The notes under the pieces: generated by a model | The model's database searches: none | Told to the model about the DNA's origin: nothing | What the model saw: the letters and a program-made list of their open reading frames with translations, nothing else | Shown here: positions 15,379-36,754 of the stretch, in pieces | Layout: each line of letters starts with the position of its first letter | Numbering within the stretch: the stretch's first letter is position 1 | IMG/VR virus record: IMGVR_UViG_3300035698_020555 | Coordinates: 1-45,836 of that record | From: a virus | DNA length: 45,836 nt | Direction: 5' to 3' (one strand) | Position numbers and translations under genes: made by a program

Positions 15379-15397
15379 ATGCATATGGATTTTTCAA
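15369..15397 (-). promoter_or_regulatory. Leftward sigma-70-type promoter
   Basis: On the minus strand, TTGAAA (15397-15392) and TATATT (15374-15369) are separated by exactly 17 bases. Transcription would begin near 15362 and reach the AAGGGG site of the first gene of the leftward operon. The -35 box lies within the first codons of the divergent HNH gene. Confidence 0.65.
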
Positions 15398-15978
15398 GTA
15401 AAATTAAGCTGTTTGATTACCAAAAAAGGCATACTGGTATCTATACAGGAGGGATTGCTCCTATTAAGGGGTATGAAGAAGAGTATTTTATAACTTCTAA
15501 GGGGAATGTATTTTCAAAGATGCGTAAAGTCCCGCATTTTAAAGGGGAAGGGGTGCGTAAAATAAAGAGAAGACATTTACAAGCTTGGTATCATCTTGGC
15601 TATGCTTGTATATCTCTCTCTAAAAGGGGGAAAGTTACAAAGTATTCAATAGCAAGATTAGTTGCTTTGCATTTTATACCCAACGCTGAAAACAAGCCAT
15701 GTGTTAATCACAAGAATGGAATCAAATTAGATAATAGAAAATCTAATTTAGAGTGGTGCACTTATTCTGAAAATAACAGGCATGCTTTTGGGCTTGGTTT
15801 GCGAAAAGCAGCGCATGTTGGGAGATACTTTAGAAAATACCCTATGTATCTGGCAAAAATACTTAGGCTGGAATACGCAAAAGATAATTCGAGGGGTAGG
15901 ATATTAGAGTTAAGTAAGGCGTATAATATGACATATAGAACAGTACAGGCCATTGTAAAAAATACAGGATACCGATGA
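15379..15978 (+). CDS. HNH homing endonuclease (NUMOD4-HNH type), inserted before SNF2 helicase
   Basis: A 199-aa protein (or 197 aa from ATG 15385). YEEEYFITSKGNVFSKM is a NUMOD4-like DNA-binding segment. KPCVNHKNGIKLDNRKSNLE is the HNH core with the catalytic His/Asn pattern, and ILELSKAYNMTYRTVQAIVK is a C-terminal helix-turn-helix. The first residues, MDFSSKIKLFDYQK, copy the start of the downstream helicase (MNISFKSKTTLFDYQK), with TTTGATTACCAAAAA identical at 15412 and 16008. The stop overlaps the helicase start as ATGA. This looks like a homing gene that entered the helicase at LFDYQK and left a rebuilt 5' end. Confidence 0.85.
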   Translation: MHMDFSSKIKLFDYQKRHTGIYTGGIAPIKGYEEEYFITSKGNVFSKMRKVPHFKGEGVRKIKRRHLQAWYHLGYACISLSKRGKVTKYSIARLVALHFIPNAENKPCVNHKNGIKLDNRKSNLEWCTYSENNRHAFGLGLRKAAHVGRYFRKYPMYLAKILRLEYAKDNSRGRILELSKAYNMTYRTVQAIVKNTGYR

Positions 15979-25664: not shown

Positions 25665-28600
25665 ATGGACTATCAGAAATTCTATTCTGAGCATGTGAGC
25701 TGGAGCCGTATTGATTCGAACCGAGAGGCGCATTGCCTATGCCCATTCCATGAGGATACCAAGTCATCATTGCATGTGAATATGGAGCACGGTGCTTGGA
25801 ATTGTAAGGCGTGCGGGTTTGGCGGGGGGCCTGCACAGTTTCTTGCGCGGCTGAAAAATATGCCGCTTGCAATGGCGTATAGTAAAGTGAATGAGTTTGA
25901 GGTGATTGATAGGGGCTTGGTAGAAGACATTACCCCCTACCATAATCGCTTGCTTAACGATAAAGAGGCACTCACCTACCTAGATGCTAAACGGGGTATC
26001 ACGCTTGAGACGGTTAAGCTGCTAAATATTGGCTATGACGGAAATAGATTTTGGATTCCCATATACAATACCGATAGGCTCATTATTAATATTAGAAAAC
26101 ATAAATTCGGTGCAGGTGAGCATGAACCGAAAACCATATCCATTAAAGGGGCCGGGCGTTGCCAAATCTATAATCTAATCCAAAAGGAAAGTGAGCCTGT
26201 ATACATCCTTGAAGGTGAGGCGGATACGATTCTCGCATACCAATATGGCCTGAATGCCCTTTGCTTTACAGGAGGGGCCAACGCCCTTTATAAAGGCGAT
26301 CTATCGATGCTAACGGATAAAGACGTTATCATTTGCTTTGATATTGATTCAGCGGGCTTACGTGGGGCTTTGAAATTGGCTACGCACCTAGATGGAGCCG
26401 TTAAATCCATTTCGATCCTTACATTGCCGCCAGATGGCTTACCTAAAAATGGGGATTTTACCGATTATATGCTAGCCCACCCCATAAAGGAGTTTAGGGC
26501 ATTAGAAATAGAGGCGTACCAAAGGTGCTTGGATATTGATGAACTGCTATACGTAACGGAGGAGAATAAATTTTATTCTACAAAGGCTATAGTTACATCC
26601 GTAACCAATACGTTCAGGGTGCCTAAACGGATGCTGTTCGGATGTAATACAGGGCTTAGGGTGCAAAAGGCATGCGCTAGATGCCCTCTGAATCTTAAAG
26701 ATAAACTTGATTTTACATTGCAATCAGATTCGTTTTTCTTGTTGCAGTTTATGGGGTGTAATGAAGATCAAACCTACCAAAAAATACTTAAATTCGCTGG
26801 CTTTGGCCCACGCTTCGGGTGTTCGCATTTCAAAATGGAGGTCAGCTCCTCTACCTATATCCAAGAAGTGCTACTTGTTAAGCCCGTTAGCTTGCATACA
26901 AAAACCTCGCAAAAGTTCGTTTATCCCGTAGGCTATGTAATTGACCATCCAGATGTAATAGGAGGGAAACACTATGCCATGGAGGCATGCGCTACTACCA
27001 TCCCGAAAAACTCTAAGGCCGGCCTGTTAATCACTGAGCTAGAACTTATGAAGGATGATATTGCTAATTTTGCCCTATCTGAGGAGGCCAAGCATATACT
27101 TGCTAAAGAGGTCGCCTTTGAATATATAGAGGATATGGTAAAAAAACGGAAAGAACGCACATTAATATATGAACAAATAACTACAATTGAACATAGAGCG
27201 TTGCTATTTGAGGCCGTGGATCTTGTCTATATGTCAGTGCCCTTCTTCAATTTTAGGGGTAGAGAGATTAAAGGTATCCTCAATTGCCTTATATTTGGGG
27301 ATACGCGTTGCTTAGAAAAAAGCCAATTGATTTATGACCCTATAAAAAAACAACAGCTTCCTGTATCTAACATAAAATCAGATTTCTATGTATATGCGTG
27401 GGATGGTTCTAAAAAGGTTATTGCAAAAGCGCATAAGCCCTTTAAAAAGGATATGGGAAGGATGGTTAAACTAACATTTAAAAATGGGGATTCTTTACGC
27501 GTCTCAGATACGCATTTGATTTTGGATTCTTCCTTAACGTATCTGCCCGTTTCTCAACTCCAATGCGGAGATTCTGTTTACCAGCTTCCGTCCATTTTGG
27601 GGTTTTCCCTTTCAATTCTTCTTTCAAATGTGACGCATTTGTTTCGTAGAGTTTCAAATTTCCTATCCTATTATCAGTCTGTATTCCATTTATATGGTGT
27701 ACAACTTCATTCTTTTTTAAATAGCGTCCTATTTTTTTCTCCATTACTAGCCGATGTTCCAATACATACGTTTTATGGCGTGCAAAAGGATGGGCAGGGA
27801 AATAAATTAAAATATACCCATTTTTATCCAGCAAACGCCCCCCCTTCCATGAAGGATGGTTTTCACCTTTTGGATACGGTGAAACAGTCGACTTTATATT
27901 ATGGCGTTTACAAAGCCTTGAAATATGCTGGTAGCAACAGTTTAGCTCTTTTGAAACCCAGCGTTGCGTTTTGTTTTCAACTTCTATCCAAAGGCGTATC
28001 TGTTCTATGGGCCAATGTGTTTTTATTTTTGTCCGCACTTAATATCTCCAATCATAGAATTGAAACTATAGAAGAGCTAGGAATAGGCGTCAAATGGGAT
28101 TTTGAAGTGCCTATATATCACAATTATATTATTGGAAAAACAGTCCACCACAATAGTGGCAAAACCGTGGCTGTGGATGGGATTATGAACTATATAGGGC
28201 TAGGTGATATGTCTAGCGGTGAAAATTGCTCTTTTGCAGGGCTTGTCGGAGGTGTGCATAAAATGCCGTCCGGGGAATGGGGGCTAGAATGGAAAAAGAT
28301 ACCCCTAAACGATGGCAGGATTGTTAAAATAGATGAATTTCATGAGATGAACGTTGCTGATATACGGAAAATGTCAGAAATGATCTCTACGGGCATTGCA
28401 CGTATCGATAAAGTGAAGTCCGGTACTGCTCTAGCACGTACCCGGCTGATTTTGCTTGCTAATTGTAGGAATGGGAAAACGTTAGGGGATTATAATTTCG
28501 GGGTGGAGGCTATACCTGATATTATGGGCGGGGCTACAGAGGATATATCACGATTGGATATTACCGTGGCAATTAAATCAGATATTAAATTGCAGTTTGT

Positions 28601-29273
28601 AGAGGATAAAGAGCGGGTATTAGAAATACCCCCTTACTTAAGAGCAGATATACTACGCCAACATGTGCTATGGGCGTGGACGCGGAAGCCCGAACATGTC
28701 TTGTTTAGTGAAACCGCTGAACGCCTCATTTATGAGCTGGCAACAGAGCAGGCAGATAAATATACCAAAGCGATTCCCCTTGTAACAGAATCAGAGCAGC
28801 CCTTTACCCTAGCTAAAATTGCAGTGGCCGCGGCATGCCTGTTCTTTAGTACAGATAAAACGTTTGAAAAAGTTGTTGTACAGCCTAACCATGTACTCTA
28901 CGCTTCCGCATTCATGGAACGCTGCTATAGCTGCCAAAATATGAATTATGACCAATATAGTGAACGAGATGCCCGCAACTCTGAGCTTAATTTCAAATAT
29001 ATAGATAGGATCCCTTGGTCAATTGAAGCACTTGAATGGCTAGAAGAAGCAGCGCATGGGATTAGTAGAAATGATATAGGGGATATGTTTAATATCGACT
29101 TCCAACGCATAGGAAAGGTGCTACGGGATTTGAAATCAGCACGTATTATTAAGAAAAATGCGAATAGCTATATTAGCGTCACTTCCCAATTTAAGATGTA
29201 TTTGAAACATAATAGAAATTATATCCTTTCTCTATGTGAGAAAGAGGAGGCTTCTAATAATGACGACTTCTAA
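25665..29273 (+). CDS. Primase-MCM-type helicase fusion containing an intein
   Basis: A 1202-aa precursor behind AAAGGAGGG, about 920 aa after splicing. Residues 23-52: CHC2 zinc finger (C26, H29, C47, C50) of DnaG-type primases. Residues 178-245: TOPRIM domain, E183 in LEGEAD, D226 and D228 in FDIDSAG. Residues about 320-480: an OB-like region with C..CARC and YIQEVLL, as in MCM N-terminal domains. The AAA+ module has Walker A GDTR|SGKT (split by the intein), GLVGGVHKMPSGEWGLEW, Walker B VKIDEFHEM (D890, E891) and sensor 1 LILLANC (N933), the MCM order. A winged helix ends the protein. It should prime and unwind DNA at the fork. Confidence 0.85.
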   Translation: MDYQKFYSEHVSWSRIDSNREAHCLCPFHEDTKSSLHVNMEHGAWNCKACGFGGGPAQFLARLKNMPLAMAYSKVNEFEVIDRGLVEDITPYHNRLLNDKEALTYLDAKRGITLETVKLLNIGYDGNRFWIPIYNTDRLIINIRKHKFGAGEHEPKTISIKGAGRCQIYNLIQKESEPVYILEGEADTILAYQYGLNALCFTGGANALYKGDLSMLTDKDVIICFDIDSAGLRGALKLATHLDGAVKSISILTLPPDGLPKNGDFTDYMLAHPIKEFRALEIEAYQRCLDIDELLYVTEENKFYSTKAIVTSVTNTFRVPKRMLFGCNTGLRVQKACARCPLNLKDKLDFTLQSDSFFLLQFMGCNEDQTYQKILKFAGFGPRFGCSHFKMEVSSSTYIQEVLLVKPVSLHTKTSQKFVYPVGYVIDHPDVIGGKHYAMEACATTIPKNSKAGLLITELELMKDDIANFALSEEAKHILAKEVAFEYIEDMVKKRKERTLIYEQITTIEHRALLFEAVDLVYMSVPFFNFRGREIKGILNCLIFGDTRCLEKSQLIYDPIKKQQLPVSNIKSDFYVYAWDGSKKVIAKAHKPFKKDMGRMVKLTFKNGDSLRVSDTHLILDSSLTYLPVSQLQCGDSVYQLPSILGFSLSILLSNVTHLFRRVSNFLSYYQSVFHLYGVQLHSFLNSVLFFSPLLADVPIHTFYGVQKDGQGNKLKYTHFYPANAPPSMKDGFHLLDTVKQSTLYYGVYKALKYAGSNSLALLKPSVAFCFQLLSKGVSVLWANVFLFLSALNISNHRIETIEELGIGVKWDFEVPIYHNYIIGKTVHHNSGKTVAVDGIMNYIGLGDMSSGENCSFAGLVGGVHKMPSGEWGLEWKKIPLNDGRIVKIDEFHEMNVADIRKMSEMISTGIARIDKVKSGTALARTRLILLANCRNGKTLGDYNFGVEAIPDIMGGATEDISRLDITVAIKSDIKLQFVEDKERVLEIPPYLRADILRQHVLWAWTRKPEHVLFSETAERLIYELATEQADKYTKAIPLVTESEQPFTLAKIAVAAACLFFSTDKTFEKVVVQPNHVLYASAFMERCYSCQNMNYDQYSERDARNSELNFKYIDRIPWSIEALEWLEEAAHGISRNDIGDMFNIDFQRIGKVLRDLKSARIIKKNANSYISVTSQFKMYLKHNRNYILSLCEKEEASNNDDF
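27309..28154 (+). mobile_element. Intein in the Walker A motif of the primase-helicase
   Basis: Residues 549-830 (282 aa). The first residue is Cys549 (CLEKSQLIYDP, block A). Block B is around RVSDTHLILDS and block F is KWDFEVPIYHNYIIG. The end is VHHN with Ser831 as the first downstream extein residue. Removal joins GDTR to SGKT and restores the P-loop. Class 1 features (C1, HN, S+1) are all present. The stretch between blocks B and F is hydrophobic and without a nuclease motif in this frame, because it is the reverse reading of an HNH gene. Confidence 0.9.
27478..28038 (-). CDS. HNH homing endonuclease encoded antisense within the intein
   Basis: A 186-aa protein on the minus strand. GTG start at 28038 with GGAG 7 bases upstream. 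WPIEQIRLWIEVENKTQRWV is a helix-turn-helix; NGYILIYFPAHPF, then VLEHRLVMEKKIGRYL and EVVHHINGIQTDNRIGNLK form the HNH core with the catalytic HH and the N/D residues. It runs antisense to the open intein frame. Its last 12 codons are antisense to block B of the intein. Its third codon positions face second positions of the sense codons. It should cut an intein-free helicase gene, driving homing. Confidence 0.85.
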   Translation of the reverse strand: MRTKIKTHWPIEQIRLWIEVENKTQRWVSKELNCCYQHISRLCKRHNIKSTVSPYPKGENHPSWKGGRLLDKNGYILIYFPAHPFARHKTYVLEHRLVMEKKIGRYLKKNEVVHHINGIQTDNRIGNLKLYETNASHLKEELKGKTPKWTEAGKQNLRIGVEKRADTLRKNPKSNAYLRRVKNPHF

Positions 29274-30692: not shown

Positions 30693-31130
30693 TTGGGGAG
30701 AAGGTTAAATAGCCCTTATTCTATTAGGGTACGGGAAGCAAAGCGAACCCCAGAAAAAAAGGAAAGAAGGAAAGAGTTAAGGCAACGGCCTGAACAAAAA
30801 GAAAAAGAGAAGGTGTATGCACGAGAATATAGGAAAAGAAGTGAGGTAAAGTATAAAAGCCAAGCGAGGGATAAAGCAAAGAGAGCTTTGGCGTCAGGAA
30901 GGTTAAAGCGTCCGGGGCAGTGTTTTTTATGTGGCAAGTTGGATACCCCTTTAAAAGATGGCAGATCCGGACTTAGAATGGATCATTATAGAGGGTATGA
31001 TTTCCCCTTAGAGGTAAGGTTTGTTTGTATTGATTGTGACGCAAAGCAAGAAAGGGACAGAGGAAATACAACAGCCCTTTATAAGGAGGTGATGGATAAT
31101 GGGGAAAACAAAACTATATCTCGGAGATAA
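30693..31130 (+). CDS. HNH-like endonuclease inserted in the methyltransferase gene
   Basis: A 145-aa frame from TTG 30693; the same frame is open upstream into the G8 run (IEEKRKIDRERKQ), so the true start may be upstream or by frameshift. The N-terminal half is basic and helical (REYRKRSEVKYKSQARDKAK). The C-terminal half has a zinc pair CFLCGK, a RMDHYRGYDFPLEV core and VCIDCD. The usual final CH is CD here, so catalytic power is uncertain. It sits between two copies of the methyltransferase 5' end, a homing-type insertion. Confidence 0.65.
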   Translation: MGRRLNSPYSIRVREAKRTPEKKERRKELRQRPEQKEKEKVYAREYRKRSEVKYKSQARDKAKRALASGRLKRPGQCFLCGKLDTPLKDGRSGLRMDHYRGYDFPLEVRFVCIDCDAKQERDRGNTTALYKEVMDNGENKTISRR

Positions 31131-31209: not shown

Positions 31210-32391
31210 ATGAACAAGAGTTGGGATTATGATATTCCTAGTACAGACACCTGGAAGGCTTGTTTGAGGGGGGCCAAGCCCGGGGCGTTTCTACTTGCCT
31301 TTGGCGGTAGTCGCACATTCCACCGTATTGCCTGCACGATAGAGGATGCGGGATGGATAATCCGAGATACTCTTATGTGGCTGTACGGTTCTGGGTTCCC
31401 AAAGTCACATAATATTAGTAAAGGGATTGATAAACAGGTAGGTGCGCAGCCTACTGTTATAGGAAAACAACAAAAAGGGTCATCACCTCTAGCAAGTAAG
31501 CATAGTGGGGAATGGGGCGATGGCCAAGTAGATGGCATCTTTGATGTGACAGCTCCTTCATCAGAACAAGCGAAAGAATGGGAAGGCTGGGGGACAGCTC
31601 TGAAGCCTGCGTTTGAGCCTATCATAGTTGCTATGAAGCCACTTGATGGCTCGTTTGCTGATAACGCCCTCAAACATGGTGTTGCAGGCCTTAATATAGA
31701 TGGGGGGAGGATCAACACAGAGGACAACTTAAATGGTGGGACTTATGCAAAGAATAGTAAATGGGAGAAAGAAGATGCGTCTTCTTTTTATATGCCATCC
31801 ACGGGCAAGGACTTCGTACAACCTCTAGGCCGATGGCCTGCCAATGTAATACTGGACGAGGAGGCAGGCAAGATGCTGGATGCGCAAAGTGGATATAGCA
31901 AAAGCACTTCGAGTCCTCGCAAAAACAGTAATACCGGAGGGGGGTTTACAGGAAGCCCTCCTAAAACAATAGAAACGTTATTCACTGATTCAGGTGGAGC
32001 ATCCAGATTCTTCTATTGCCCTAAAGAAAATAAGAAATGGCGGAATGCCGGTTGTGAGGATTTGGAGGAACAAAAAGCAGGTATATTAAGTGGGAGAAGT
32101 GATATGTCATTGGGGGGTACTATCCCAAGGAACAGAAACATACATCCTACAGTTAAGCCTATTCCGTTAATGGAATATCTATGCAAACTTACTAAAACAC
32201 CAACAGGTGGGATAGTTTTAGACCCGTTCATGGGATCAGGTTCTACGGGCATAGCCGCCTTACGTGAAGGACGTGACTTTATAGGCATAGAACTTAACCC
32301 AGAATACTTCAACATAGCAAAAGAACGTATCGGCTTAGTAGAAAATCCAATTAAAGGCACTCCATTAGATGCTTTCATTACCAACACGTAA
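31210..32391 (+). CDS. Beta-class DNA adenine/cytosine methyltransferase, main part
   Basis: 393 aa in the frame of the second N-terminal fragment, separated by the in-frame TAA. MNKSWDYDIPSTDTW, ACLRGAKPGAFLLAFGGSRT, IRDTLMWLYGSGFPKSHN and, near the end, VLDPFMGSGSTGIAALREGR (SAM-binding motif I) plus FIGIELNPEYFNIAKERI. The order DPPY first, then motif I, is the beta class. Weak AAGG lies upstream of ATG 31210. Separated from its DPPY it may be inactive unless the stop is read through. Confidence 0.85.
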   Translation: MNKSWDYDIPSTDTWKACLRGAKPGAFLLAFGGSRTFHRIACTIEDAGWIIRDTLMWLYGSGFPKSHNISKGIDKQVGAQPTVIGKQQKGSSPLASKHSGEWGDGQVDGIFDVTAPSSEQAKEWEGWGTALKPAFEPIIVAMKPLDGSFADNALKHGVAGLNIDGGRINTEDNLNGGTYAKNSKWEKEDASSFYMPSTGKDFVQPLGRWPANVILDEEAGKMLDAQSGYSKSTSSPRKNSNTGGGFTGSPPKTIETLFTDSGGASRFFYCPKENKKWRNAGCEDLEEQKAGILSGRSDMSLGGTIPRNRNIHPTVKPIPLMEYLCKLTKTPTGGIVLDPFMGSGSTGIAALREGRDFIGIELNPEYFNIAKERIGLVENPIKGTPLDAFITNT

Positions 32392-33892: not shown

Positions 33893-36388
33893 ATGGTAGA
33901 ACAACAAAAAATAAATAAAAAGTTTTCAGGCGTATCCTCCCAAAAGAGTCCGTGGTATGCGGATTCTATGGTTTATGGGTATGACCCAAACACGTTCAAA
34001 TCCCAAAAAGGCTTTAAAACAATAGATGCGATGCTTGATGATGACCAAGTATTTGGCGTATTAGAGATGAAGAAAGCGTTCATGCTGGGCTCTGGCTATC
34101 ATTTCATAGTAGAAGAGGATGCAGAGGACAAAAAGGTACAAGAGGTTTTAGATTTCATTAAAGTTAATTTTGATGAAAAATATGACAAGCATTTCATTAA
34201 CGATTTATATCAAGTTTTATCCGCATTAGAGTACGGGTTTAGCATGTCGGAAATGCTGTATAAGCGGGGCGATTATAAAGGGTTCCTTGATAAAATATGG
34301 ATGTATCGGCTCAAAACGATACCGCCGCATAGTGTTTCTTTTTATACAGATGATAGTGGCGAATTAGAAAAGGTTATGCAGCATCAATTGAGAGGTGATG
34401 TATATTTACCGGAATGGAAGTTTCTACATTTCGTTAAGAATGCGAAATTTGATAACCCTTATGGGGTTTCAGAGTTACAACGCTGTTATCGGGCATGGTT
34501 CATAAAAGACGTAGTAATTAAGTATTGGGGGATTTACTTACAACGTTTTGCAGCACCTTTCACCATTGCCAAGGTGCCTACAGATTATGGGGATGCTCAA
34601 ACAACAGAATTATTGCACATGCTAGAGTCAATACAGCAATCCGGGGCGGCTGTAATACCCAATGATGCGGAAGTAGAATTTATCAAAGTAACAGAATCAT
34701 CAAGTGAGTACGACAAGGCAATTGAGCGATTTAATCAGATGATCGGACGCTCATTATTGATACCTGACCTGTTAGGGTTTGGTCAAACAACGGGAGGCGG
34801 TTCATACGCTTTAGGTGAAAAGCAATTTGATACATTTGTAACCCTATTACAATTTGATAGGACTGCATTAGAGGAGCTTATTAATGAGCAGGTCATCATT
34901 CCGTTAGTTGACCTGAATTTTGGCCAACAGTCCGTATATCCCAAGTTCAAATTCTTACCATACAGAGATTCTCAATTAGTGGAGATGCTAACTTTATTTA
35001 TTTCCTCGGTAGAGAAGGGATTACCTATAACCCTAGAAGATTATAATAGGTTTAGGGAGTTAATGAATTTCCCACAATTAGAAAAAGATTTTAAGCCTCT
35101 AGAAACAGTTAAAAAGGTTGAGGAGGGCGGTGATGAGAACAACGACAAACAGCCACAAGAGGAGCCTGACATTGACGGAGAGCCTAAAGAGGATACACCA
35201 GATGAGCAACAAGATGGTGCCGATAAAGGCGCGGTTAAGGGAGGGGATCCGAAGGCGTTGGAGGATAATGTTGAGAAAAACACACGTGCTACATTTGCCA
35301 AAGCATCACGAAAAATAAACAAGTATGAGAAGCGAGCAGGGCTTGTAGAAGAGGATACCTTTTTAAGAGCTAAAGAGGATATGGCTATATCCAAGATAAG
35401 CGGGATATTTGAGAGGGCCAGAGATGCCTTCAAGAAGTCCATAGTAGCTAAAGGGATTATCCAAGATAAGAAAATAGGAGATATAAAGAGTTTAAAGCTT
35501 CGGTTCATGGGTGAGGTTTACGATACCCTGCTAAAAGATTTAGTTCAGATATACGATACCTCATTTATCAATTCAAAAAAGCAGATTAAGACGTTAAAGG
35601 AAGAGCAGAAGGATGCGCTGGACAAGTTCGCGGTTAAATCGCCAAACGATTTATTTTTACCATCAAGCCAAGCAAAGAAATTGGCTGAAGCTGGCATTCA
35701 AGAGCGCACATTTCAGGCGGTAGGTAAATTGAATGATGATTTATTGAACGATTCCAAGTCAGCATTATTGAATGGTATTGAGAAGGGCTTGCCTACAAAT
35801 ACGGTAATGAAAAACTTAGATGATATATGGAACCCTGTAGTAAAAGGCACGGCCGGGGCCGGGTTATCGGCTAGTCCTGCATTAGTAGAAACTATTGTCC
35901 GCACAAATTACACAACGTTTTATAATACAGCCAAGTTACAGATAGCTCGCTCAAGTGATTTAGGTTCCCCTATTGAGATGCTGATGTATTCTGCAATCCT
36001 AGATGATAGGACAACTGAGATATGCCAATCATTGGATGGTACTGTATTACCCAAGAACGATCCTATGTGGGATCGCATAGCACCCCCGAACCATTTTAAC
36101 CAAGTCAAAGAAGGTTCTTTAATAACGACACAAGATGGCGATGCTCCTATAGAAGAAATTAAGACCGGGGATTTAGTATTTACGCATAAAGGCAATTATA
36201 AACGTGTATATGAGACAATGAACAAATTTGATGATAAGTATTATTATGAGCTTAGTATAGAAGGAAAAGACAACCCTTTATATATAAGTGGGGAGCATCC
36301 TATTTTAACGGATACAGGCTGGAAAAGAATGGATGCATTAACTATGTTAGATAGTGTTATATGCATTGAGGAGGTCACTAATGGATAA
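33893..36388 (+). CDS. Portal fused to Mu gpF-like head protein, ending in an intein N-half
   Basis: An 831-aa protein directly after terL. Residues 1-410 are a Mu gp29/DUF935-type portal (DDQVFGVLEMKKAFMLGSGY, YGVSELQRCYRAWFIKD, SYALGEKQFD). Residues about 480-736 are gpF-like: TIVRTNYTTFYNTAKLQIA, AILDDRTTEICQSLDGTVL and RIAPPNHFN, the conserved motif normally continuing CRS. At residue 737 an intein N-half begins (95 aa), and the reading frame ends at its natural split point. The missing CRS and C-terminus are in the gene at 36512. Confidence 0.9.
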   Translation: MVEQQKINKKFSGVSSQKSPWYADSMVYGYDPNTFKSQKGFKTIDAMLDDDQVFGVLEMKKAFMLGSGYHFIVEEDAEDKKVQEVLDFIKVNFDEKYDKHFINDLYQVLSALEYGFSMSEMLYKRGDYKGFLDKIWMYRLKTIPPHSVSFYTDDSGELEKVMQHQLRGDVYLPEWKFLHFVKNAKFDNPYGVSELQRCYRAWFIKDVVIKYWGIYLQRFAAPFTIAKVPTDYGDAQTTELLHMLESIQQSGAAVIPNDAEVEFIKVTESSSEYDKAIERFNQMIGRSLLIPDLLGFGQTTGGGSYALGEKQFDTFVTLLQFDRTALEELINEQVIIPLVDLNFGQQSVYPKFKFLPYRDSQLVEMLTLFISSVEKGLPITLEDYNRFRELMNFPQLEKDFKPLETVKKVEEGGDENNDKQPQEEPDIDGEPKEDTPDEQQDGADKGAVKGGDPKALEDNVEKNTRATFAKASRKINKYEKRAGLVEEDTFLRAKEDMAISKISGIFERARDAFKKSIVAKGIIQDKKIGDIKSLKLRFMGEVYDTLLKDLVQIYDTSFINSKKQIKTLKEEQKDALDKFAVKSPNDLFLPSSQAKKLAEAGIQERTFQAVGKLNDDLLNDSKSALLNGIEKGLPTNTVMKNLDDIWNPVVKGTAGAGLSASPALVETIVRTNYTTFYNTAKLQIARSSDLGSPIEMLMYSAILDDRTTEICQSLDGTVLPKNDPMWDRIAPPNHFNQVKEGSLITTQDGDAPIEEIKTGDLVFTHKGNYKRVYETMNKFDDKYYYELSIEGKDNPLYISGEHPILTDTGWKRMDALTMLDSVICIEEVTNG
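36101..36385 (+). mobile_element. Split intein N-half, starting with Gln
   Basis: 95 aa beginning QVKEGSLITTQDGDAPIEEI; the usual Cys or Ser at position 1 is Gln here. Block A (GSLITTQDG) and block B (ISGEHPILTDTGWKRM, with the His) are present. The end lies where natural split inteins such as DnaE divide. With the 37-aa C-half the total is 132 aa, mini-intein size. Confidence 0.85.
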
Positions 36389-36524
36389 TTTATTTTTTAG
36401 TGAGTTTCTAGGGATGCGCAGGATTTTAAAGCCTAGTTTTGACAGGAAGGCATCTTTAATTCTTGCTCTATCCCGTCTTGTTTTACACCACTTATCAGTG
36501 AGGAGTGTTTTATGTCAAATATAA
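36381..36524 (+). CDS. 47-aa reading frame bridging the two intein halves
   Basis: ATG 36381 has GAGGAGG 6 bases upstream and overlaps the last codons of the N-half by 8 bases. It stops at 36524, overlapping the C-half start by 13 bases. The product has a hydrophobic helix (KASLILALSRLVLHHL) and no known motif. Ribosomes could pass from one gene to the next along this chain. It may be a remnant of a lost homing endonuclease or only a coupling device. Confidence 0.45.
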   Translation: MDNLFFSEFLGMRRILKPSFDRKASLILALSRLVLHHLSVRSVLCQI

Positions 36525-36754
36525 GTTCTATACGAAAAGTGGAGCATGAGGGAGAGCGTTTTTATAATTTAGCTGTTGAAGAAGATGAGAGCTACATTGC
36601 AAATGGCATTGTAGTGCATAATTGCAGAAGCCAATTGGTATATGTAACAAAGGCGGATGTAGAGATAGATGGTATAGAGCCATCCAAAGAGCCTAACTTA
36701 CAAAAGCTTCAAGGGTTGCCGGGGGTATCAAGTCAAAAAAGGTCATTTGTTTAG
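36512..36754 (+). CDS. Split intein C-half plus gpF C-terminal extein
   Basis: ATG 36512 follows GAGGAG with 8-base spacing. Residues 1-37 are an intein C-half: blocks F and G, RFYNLAVEEDESYIANG and VVHN. Residue 38 is Cys, the first C-extein residue (CRSQLVYVTKADV). The remaining 43 residues complete the gpF-like protein. Trans-splicing would give PPNHFN-CRS, the family's normal motif. Confidence 0.9.
   Translation: MSNISSIRKVEHEGERFYNLAVEEDESYIANGIVVHNCRSQLVYVTKADVEIDGIEPSKEPNLQKLQGLPGVSSQKRSFV

Follow-up and report, generated by a model that had tools for sequence, protein, structure and literature searches.

Full-length mobile inteins, such as those in the TerL proteins of mycobacteriophages, carry a homing endonuclease in the sense frame, between splicing blocks B and F (PMC5050341). 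In the 45,836-nucleotide virus contig analysed here (IMG/VR record IMGVR_UViG_3300035698_020555, below called the window), this place in an intein is occupied by an HNH endonuclease gene that is encoded on the opposite strand. The locus thus raises the question whether the same DNA can encode a spliceable intein and a working endonuclease, or whether one of the two frames is a remnant. Our analysis indicates that the window very probably contains a mobile intein that is served by a homing endonuclease from an antisense gene of its own, expressed separately; that the intein splices, that the antisense gene is expressed and that its product cuts DNA and mediates homing is what we infer from the sequence. 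The features of the locus and further observations in the window are listed in the table.

Table. Features of the intein locus and other genes of interest in the window
Feature	Position	Strand	Remarks
CHC2/Toprim primase-helicase host gene	25665..29273	+	1202-aa ORF without internal stop; intein in Walker A P-loop (GDTR^intein^SGKT)
Intein N-terminal splicing domain	27309..27593	+	residues 1-95; C1; block B at about 27486-27527; H69 invariant; pLDDT 94-98
Sense linker	27594..28040	+	residues 96-244 (149); predicted disordered; antisense to HNH core
Intein C-terminal splicing domain	28041..28154	+	residues 245-282; blocks F and G; HHN then S+1; Y273, H281 and N282 invariant
HNH homing-type endonuclease	27478..28038	-	186 aa, GTG start; helix-turn-helix-like N-terminal region and HNH core; HNH_3 E 4.7e-10
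Shine-Dalgarno sequence GGAG	28046..28049	-	7 nt before GTG; from sequence
Sigma70-like promoter TTGACG-17-TATAGT	28065..28093	-	26 nt upstream of GTG; within DNA coding for the intein C-domain; predicted
Hairpin and T run	28144..28163	-	precisely at intein/C-extein junction; upstream of HNH promoter
Free-standing HNH endonuclease	15379..15978	+	PHROG phrog_59; upstream of helicase
Endonuclease-like gene	30693..31130	+	phrog_2340; adjoins methyltransferase-like gene
Methyltransferase-like gene	31210..32391
Portal-MuF split intein, N-half	36101..36388	+	ends ORF 33893-36388; starts with Q1 after PPNHFN
Portal-MuF split intein, C-half	36512..36754	+	own ATG at about 36512; ends VVHN^CRSQ

The sense-strand intein (27309-28154) lies in frame in the host gene and is free of stops over 282 amino acids. 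Of the class 1 intein features, it has the N-terminal nucleophile (C1) and an HHN^S C-terminus, and its removal restores a conserved extein: deletion of the intein in silico yields ...LNCLIFGDTR/SGKTVAVDG..., which aligns across the junction with LLVIGDTRTGKTETGS of the intein-free primase of Bacillus phage BSTP12 (GDTRTGKT). The match to Pfam Intein_splicing (E 5e-5) is under the curated cut-off and weak taken alone; against a profile of relatives that was built without it, the window intein scores 140.9 bits. Block B has the form S-x-x-H instead of the usual T-x-x-H, with a histidine that is invariant in 43 relatives, and the splicing residues are invariant among the 43 inteins compared. AlphaFold predicts a HINT fold for the sense protein (pLDDT 94-98 for residues 1-90 and 96-98 for residues 251-282), the best PDB match of which is the NpuDnaB intein (4o1r, E 1.3e-6). 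The first-pass annotation had proposed an intein with an open sense frame at this position, and the terminal residues, the profile score and the predicted fold confirm it. Between blocks B and F, no endonuclease domain is encoded in the sense frame: the sense protein matches the splicing domain only, and the linker has pLDDT values of mostly 38-56, rising to about 67 at either end.

The antisense protein contains the HNH_3 motif with its catalytic residues, H115, N123, N127 and H137 being invariant. A profile from which it was left out gives it 169.8 bits; the best free-standing HNH protein reaches 111. PHROG 10730 (HNH endonuclease) is matched by the HNH of phage Ymer over its full length (9e-64), by that of a terminase relative (L042, 4e-60) and by the window HNH (1.5e-27). 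The AlphaFold model has a mean pLDDT of 90, and its best PDB match is I-HmuI (1u3e), with a Foldseek probability of 0.98 but a non-significant E of 0.1; therefore, the HNH assignment rests mainly on the family match. A complete minus-strand HNH gene with GTG start and GGAG site, as described at first sight, is thus found, and according to the coordinates its final codons are indeed antisense to block B.

Most relatives from the first HNH scan were free-standing, and the locus was taken for an isolated oddity; this reading was dropped once matches in Pectobacterium phages were read on both strands. In eight Pectobacterium and Dickeya phages, identified by tblastn of phage genomes, the large terminase has an intein in its Walker A motif (GFG^C...HHN^TGKS) with the HNH gene antisense inside it, and the HNH protein is 42% identical to the window HNH over residues 57-183. 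Pseudoalteromonas phage PHS3 has the same layout (GGAG^C...HHN^SGKS) with an HNH that is 50% identical to that of Ymer. The isolate genomes with this layout are Ymer, Abuela, Koroua, Amona, Sabo, Taid, Pappous, Setonix and PHS3. Two scans of IMG/VR identified 241 and 275 relatives, and the best 80 were kept from each. In the first set, the HNH ORF is wholly inside the antisense frame in 80 of 80 loci, with one phase throughout; in the second, this holds with the same phase for 73 of the 75 newly fetched loci. Clustering left 86 distinct antisense cases, with an intact HNH in every one, and 10 free-standing HNHs, eight of which stem from an earlier, looser scan. In the antisense cases, clusters and phages alike, the HNH gene lies fully inside the intein-bearing open frame in identical codon phase.

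A Pfam intein domain was matched by 35 of the 52 sense proteins examined (best 2e-16), and the exteins among these 52 include Terminase_6 (28), Terminase_3 (11), SNF2 (2) and TraG (1). The insertion site in the P-loop is common to these unrelated exteins, that is terminases, SNF2 helicases and a TraG-like ATPase, and to the primase-helicase of the window. The tree places the antisense layout at a single origin in 58% of bootstraps, a value that does not separate one origin from two. IMG/VR scans that used the window intein or its exteins alone gave no matches, and selection was therefore measured on the relatives and not on the window copy; a near-identical relative of the window was absent from the collections scanned. 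Scans of GTDB genomes gave no confirmed relative, and a plasmid scan gave weak matches to the HNH core only. Several of the contigs from IMG/VR have identifiers in the style of isolates and are possibly prophages.

That one DNA has to encode both the linker and the endonuclease was part of the first-pass annotation, and this could be substantiated in the window as well as in the relatives. When the HNH codons of the window were reshuffled synonymously, the sense frame acquired a mean of 5.6 stops and was stop-free in 1 of 5000 shuffles; the observed number is zero. For the 86 clusters, the same shuffling predicts 469 stops in the host frame, against none observed. The other two antisense frames of these clusters contain 702 and 694 stops with 702 and 668 expected, and in the free-standing HNH relatives the corresponding frame has stops at about the expected rate. 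In the zone opposite the HNH core, 691 differences were counted in 17 independent pairs, and 414 fall on the second base of a sense codon, the wobble position of the HNH frame. HNH-synonymous changes in the linker zone amount to 407 versus 196 expected. A comparison of dN/dS in both frames of related phages had been proposed as a check for the locus. In the zone opposite the HNH core, it yielded about 0.28 for HNH and a sense ratio of about 2.1, both from crude counts outside any overlapping-gene model and uncorrected for multiple hits; in the zone opposite the N-terminal splicing domain, crude counts give a sense ratio of about 0.5, with half the divergence of the HNH-core zone (0.041 versus 0.082). 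The exteins have an ordinary third-position pattern (ratio about 0.13, likewise from crude counts). Five Pectobacterium haplotypes contain 24 changes that alter the sense protein and are silent in HNH (11.7 expected), with neither stops nor indels, and beyond the overlap 32 silent versus 2 changing differences. These substitution patterns indicate that the HNH frame is under purifying selection in the relatives, and that the constraint on the sense frame is relaxed in the linker and kept in the splicing domain.

The relatives also provide the informative test for expression signals, since promoter counts across the entire window are not above chance and only a position-specific test over relatives is informative. 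In many of them, the C-domain DNA contains a sigma70-like promoter whose boxes are 17 nt apart and whose -10 box ends 26-32 nt before the HNH start codon; L059 has the best one, with the perfect sequence TTGACA-17-TATAAT. Promoter scores of at least 10/12 were found in 21 of 86 loci versus 3.1 expected upon synonymous resampling of the sense codons. Shine-Dalgarno matches of at least 5 nt occur in 45 of 86 loci versus 13.5 expected with the same resampling, the observed count being inflated by the choice of the start with the best Shine-Dalgarno sequence. The predicted window promoter agrees in its spacing with the family and has a P of about 0.07 taken singly. The hairpin at the intein/C-extein junction could shield the HNH promoter from read-through, or be a chance feature.

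Evidence for mobility comes from empty sites. Intein-free terminases with an uninterrupted GPVGSGKS at the insertion site reach 97.7% identity with occupied ones in the C-extein (L316 and L060). Thus, in the relatives one exact site is occupied in some alleles and empty in others; for the host gene of the window, the intein-free counterparts are distant homologues only. When the scan used the sense splicing domain as its key instead of HNH, an antisense HNH was present in 79 of 80 loci, 78 of them unbroken (one ends at a contig edge). In one locus (L189) the antisense HNH is broken by a stop and the intein is still open, and another (L218) encodes a 173-aa mini-intein without antisense HNH, which shows that the splicing domain is retained even without the endonuclease. 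Rare decay states are what the homing cycle predicts.

Taken together, the plus strand would be translated into a primase-helicase precursor, from which the HINT domain (residues 1-95 and 245-282) would excise itself together with the disordered 149-residue linker and so restore the P-loop GDTRSGKT. The minus strand would yield the helix-turn-helix/HNH endonuclease from signals of its own inside the intein, a promoter and a ribosome-binding site, and this enzyme would cut intein-free P-loop alleles, into which the whole unit would be copied; the HNH protein could also be a nickase or serve another role. We think it likely that the window belongs to a widespread phage intein lineage, in which an autonomous antisense gene for the homing endonuclease, equipped with a promoter and ribosome-binding site, is nested in the intein frame, and that this unit has moved among the P-loops of unrelated ATPases.

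Other readings have to be weighed against this one. The antisense ORF might be a dead or accidental remnant, left by a free-standing HNH gene that landed backwards in the intein, so that only the sense frame matters. The broken and the missing HNH, each beside an open intein, are what such decay looks like, but antisense decay with a kept intein, which had been named beforehand as the sign of a remnant, is rare (one broken and one absent in 80 loci), and HNH is intact in all 86 clusters and in 78 of the 80 sense-keyed loci. The purifying selection on the HNH frame, the enrichment of promoters and Shine-Dalgarno sequences and the confidently predicted HNH fold likewise speak against a remnant, which is very unlikely and largely refuted by the dual-frame substitution pattern. 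Conversely, the intein may no longer splice, the insertion being tolerated or splitting the host protein, with the endonuclease as sole functional product, similar to what has been proposed for the ShiLan domain. The sub-threshold Pfam score and the unusual block B would fit such a loss; against it stand the confident HINT fold, the presence of C1, His, Asn and the +1 Ser, the invariance of the splicing residues in 43 inteins, the sense constraint in the splicing domain and a location in a P-loop that must be restored. As the natural mini-intein moreover keeps the splicing domain alone, we regard a non-splicing insertion as highly improbable.

HNH nucleases have further roles in phages. Both products might work while HNH serves a purpose other than homing, for instance in attacks on rival phages or on the host, or in controlling the host gene from the antisense strand; the internal antisense promoter could affect that gene too. 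Yet HNHs of this clade are nearly always found inside an intein, the closest solved structure is the homing enzyme I-HmuI, and the common P-loop site in unrelated exteins and the empty and occupied alleles point to homing, so that a non-homing role appears unlikely. An assembly or annotation artefact might be suspected in a contig from an uncultivated virus, but it is next to impossible, being already refuted by the identical layout in nine isolate genomes. An intron was considered as well, and this reading was abandoned because an Rfam search at the locus gave no RNA element.

With mycobacteriophage TerL inteins, the mobile intein favoured here shares the HINT domain, P-loop sites in phage ATPases and an endonuclease coded between blocks B and F; in contrast to them, its endonuclease is outside the precursor, on the other strand, with its own start and predicted promoter. 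The ShiLan domain is an in-frame insertion in a phage methylase that hides an HNH in another reading frame (PMC11855218). Both are insertions into phage genes with an out-of-frame HNH of related families, but the ShiLan HNH is on the same strand and comes without splicing domain or detectable ribosome-binding site, whereas the window has an intein with the HNH on the opposite strand, preceded by a predicted promoter and ribosome-binding site. Nuclear group I introns carry antisense His-Cys homing endonuclease genes (PMC9548176) and are likewise self-splicing mobile elements; their host strand need only be RNA, while in the window both strands encode protein. I-HmuI is also an HNH enzyme of the homing type, and it is encoded in a group I intron. 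The record of PHROG 10730 has the HNH annotation only and does not record the intein arrangement. No intein with an antisense endonuclease was found in the open-licence full-text literature, where a subscription paper could have been missed; within that literature, the initial statement that no example has been described holds. The layout is thus apparently undescribed: an intein, yet with an endonuclease that fails the defining sense-frame position.

Mobile inteins as a rule have their endonuclease within the frame of the intein itself. The layout would be an exception, and the family offers many natural replicates of a long antisense gene overlap in which both products are conserved. The layout also makes testable how a selfish element separates the time of cutting, set by an antisense promoter, from the time of splicing, set by the host gene. 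In addition, it explains misannotated phage terminases. In PHS3 (L013), gene calling picked the antisense HNH, and the annotated TerL therefore starts only after the intein, the true ORF comprising 708 aa; the intein-containing Pectobacterium terminases are annotated as 'hypothetical'.

Further observations concern the relatives and the window. The HNH of the Pectobacterium and Dickeya phages (L014/L018-L025) continues for 50-60 more residues at its C-terminus, opposite splicing block A on the other strand. PHS3 shows conservation of this extension as well, though a large part of that conservation may stem from the sense frame. One terminase (L129) contains two inteins/Hint domains, one with an antisense HNH and a second with a Hint_2 match at residues 506-548. 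Mycobacteriophage methylases (L026; H37-H40, H98-H100, H109, H162-H175) have in-gene HNH matches of the ShiLan type with related HNH cores, which suggests that this HNH family may have given rise to hidden HNHs repeatedly. The portal-MuF split intein of the window has a residue 1 that is not a usual nucleophile.
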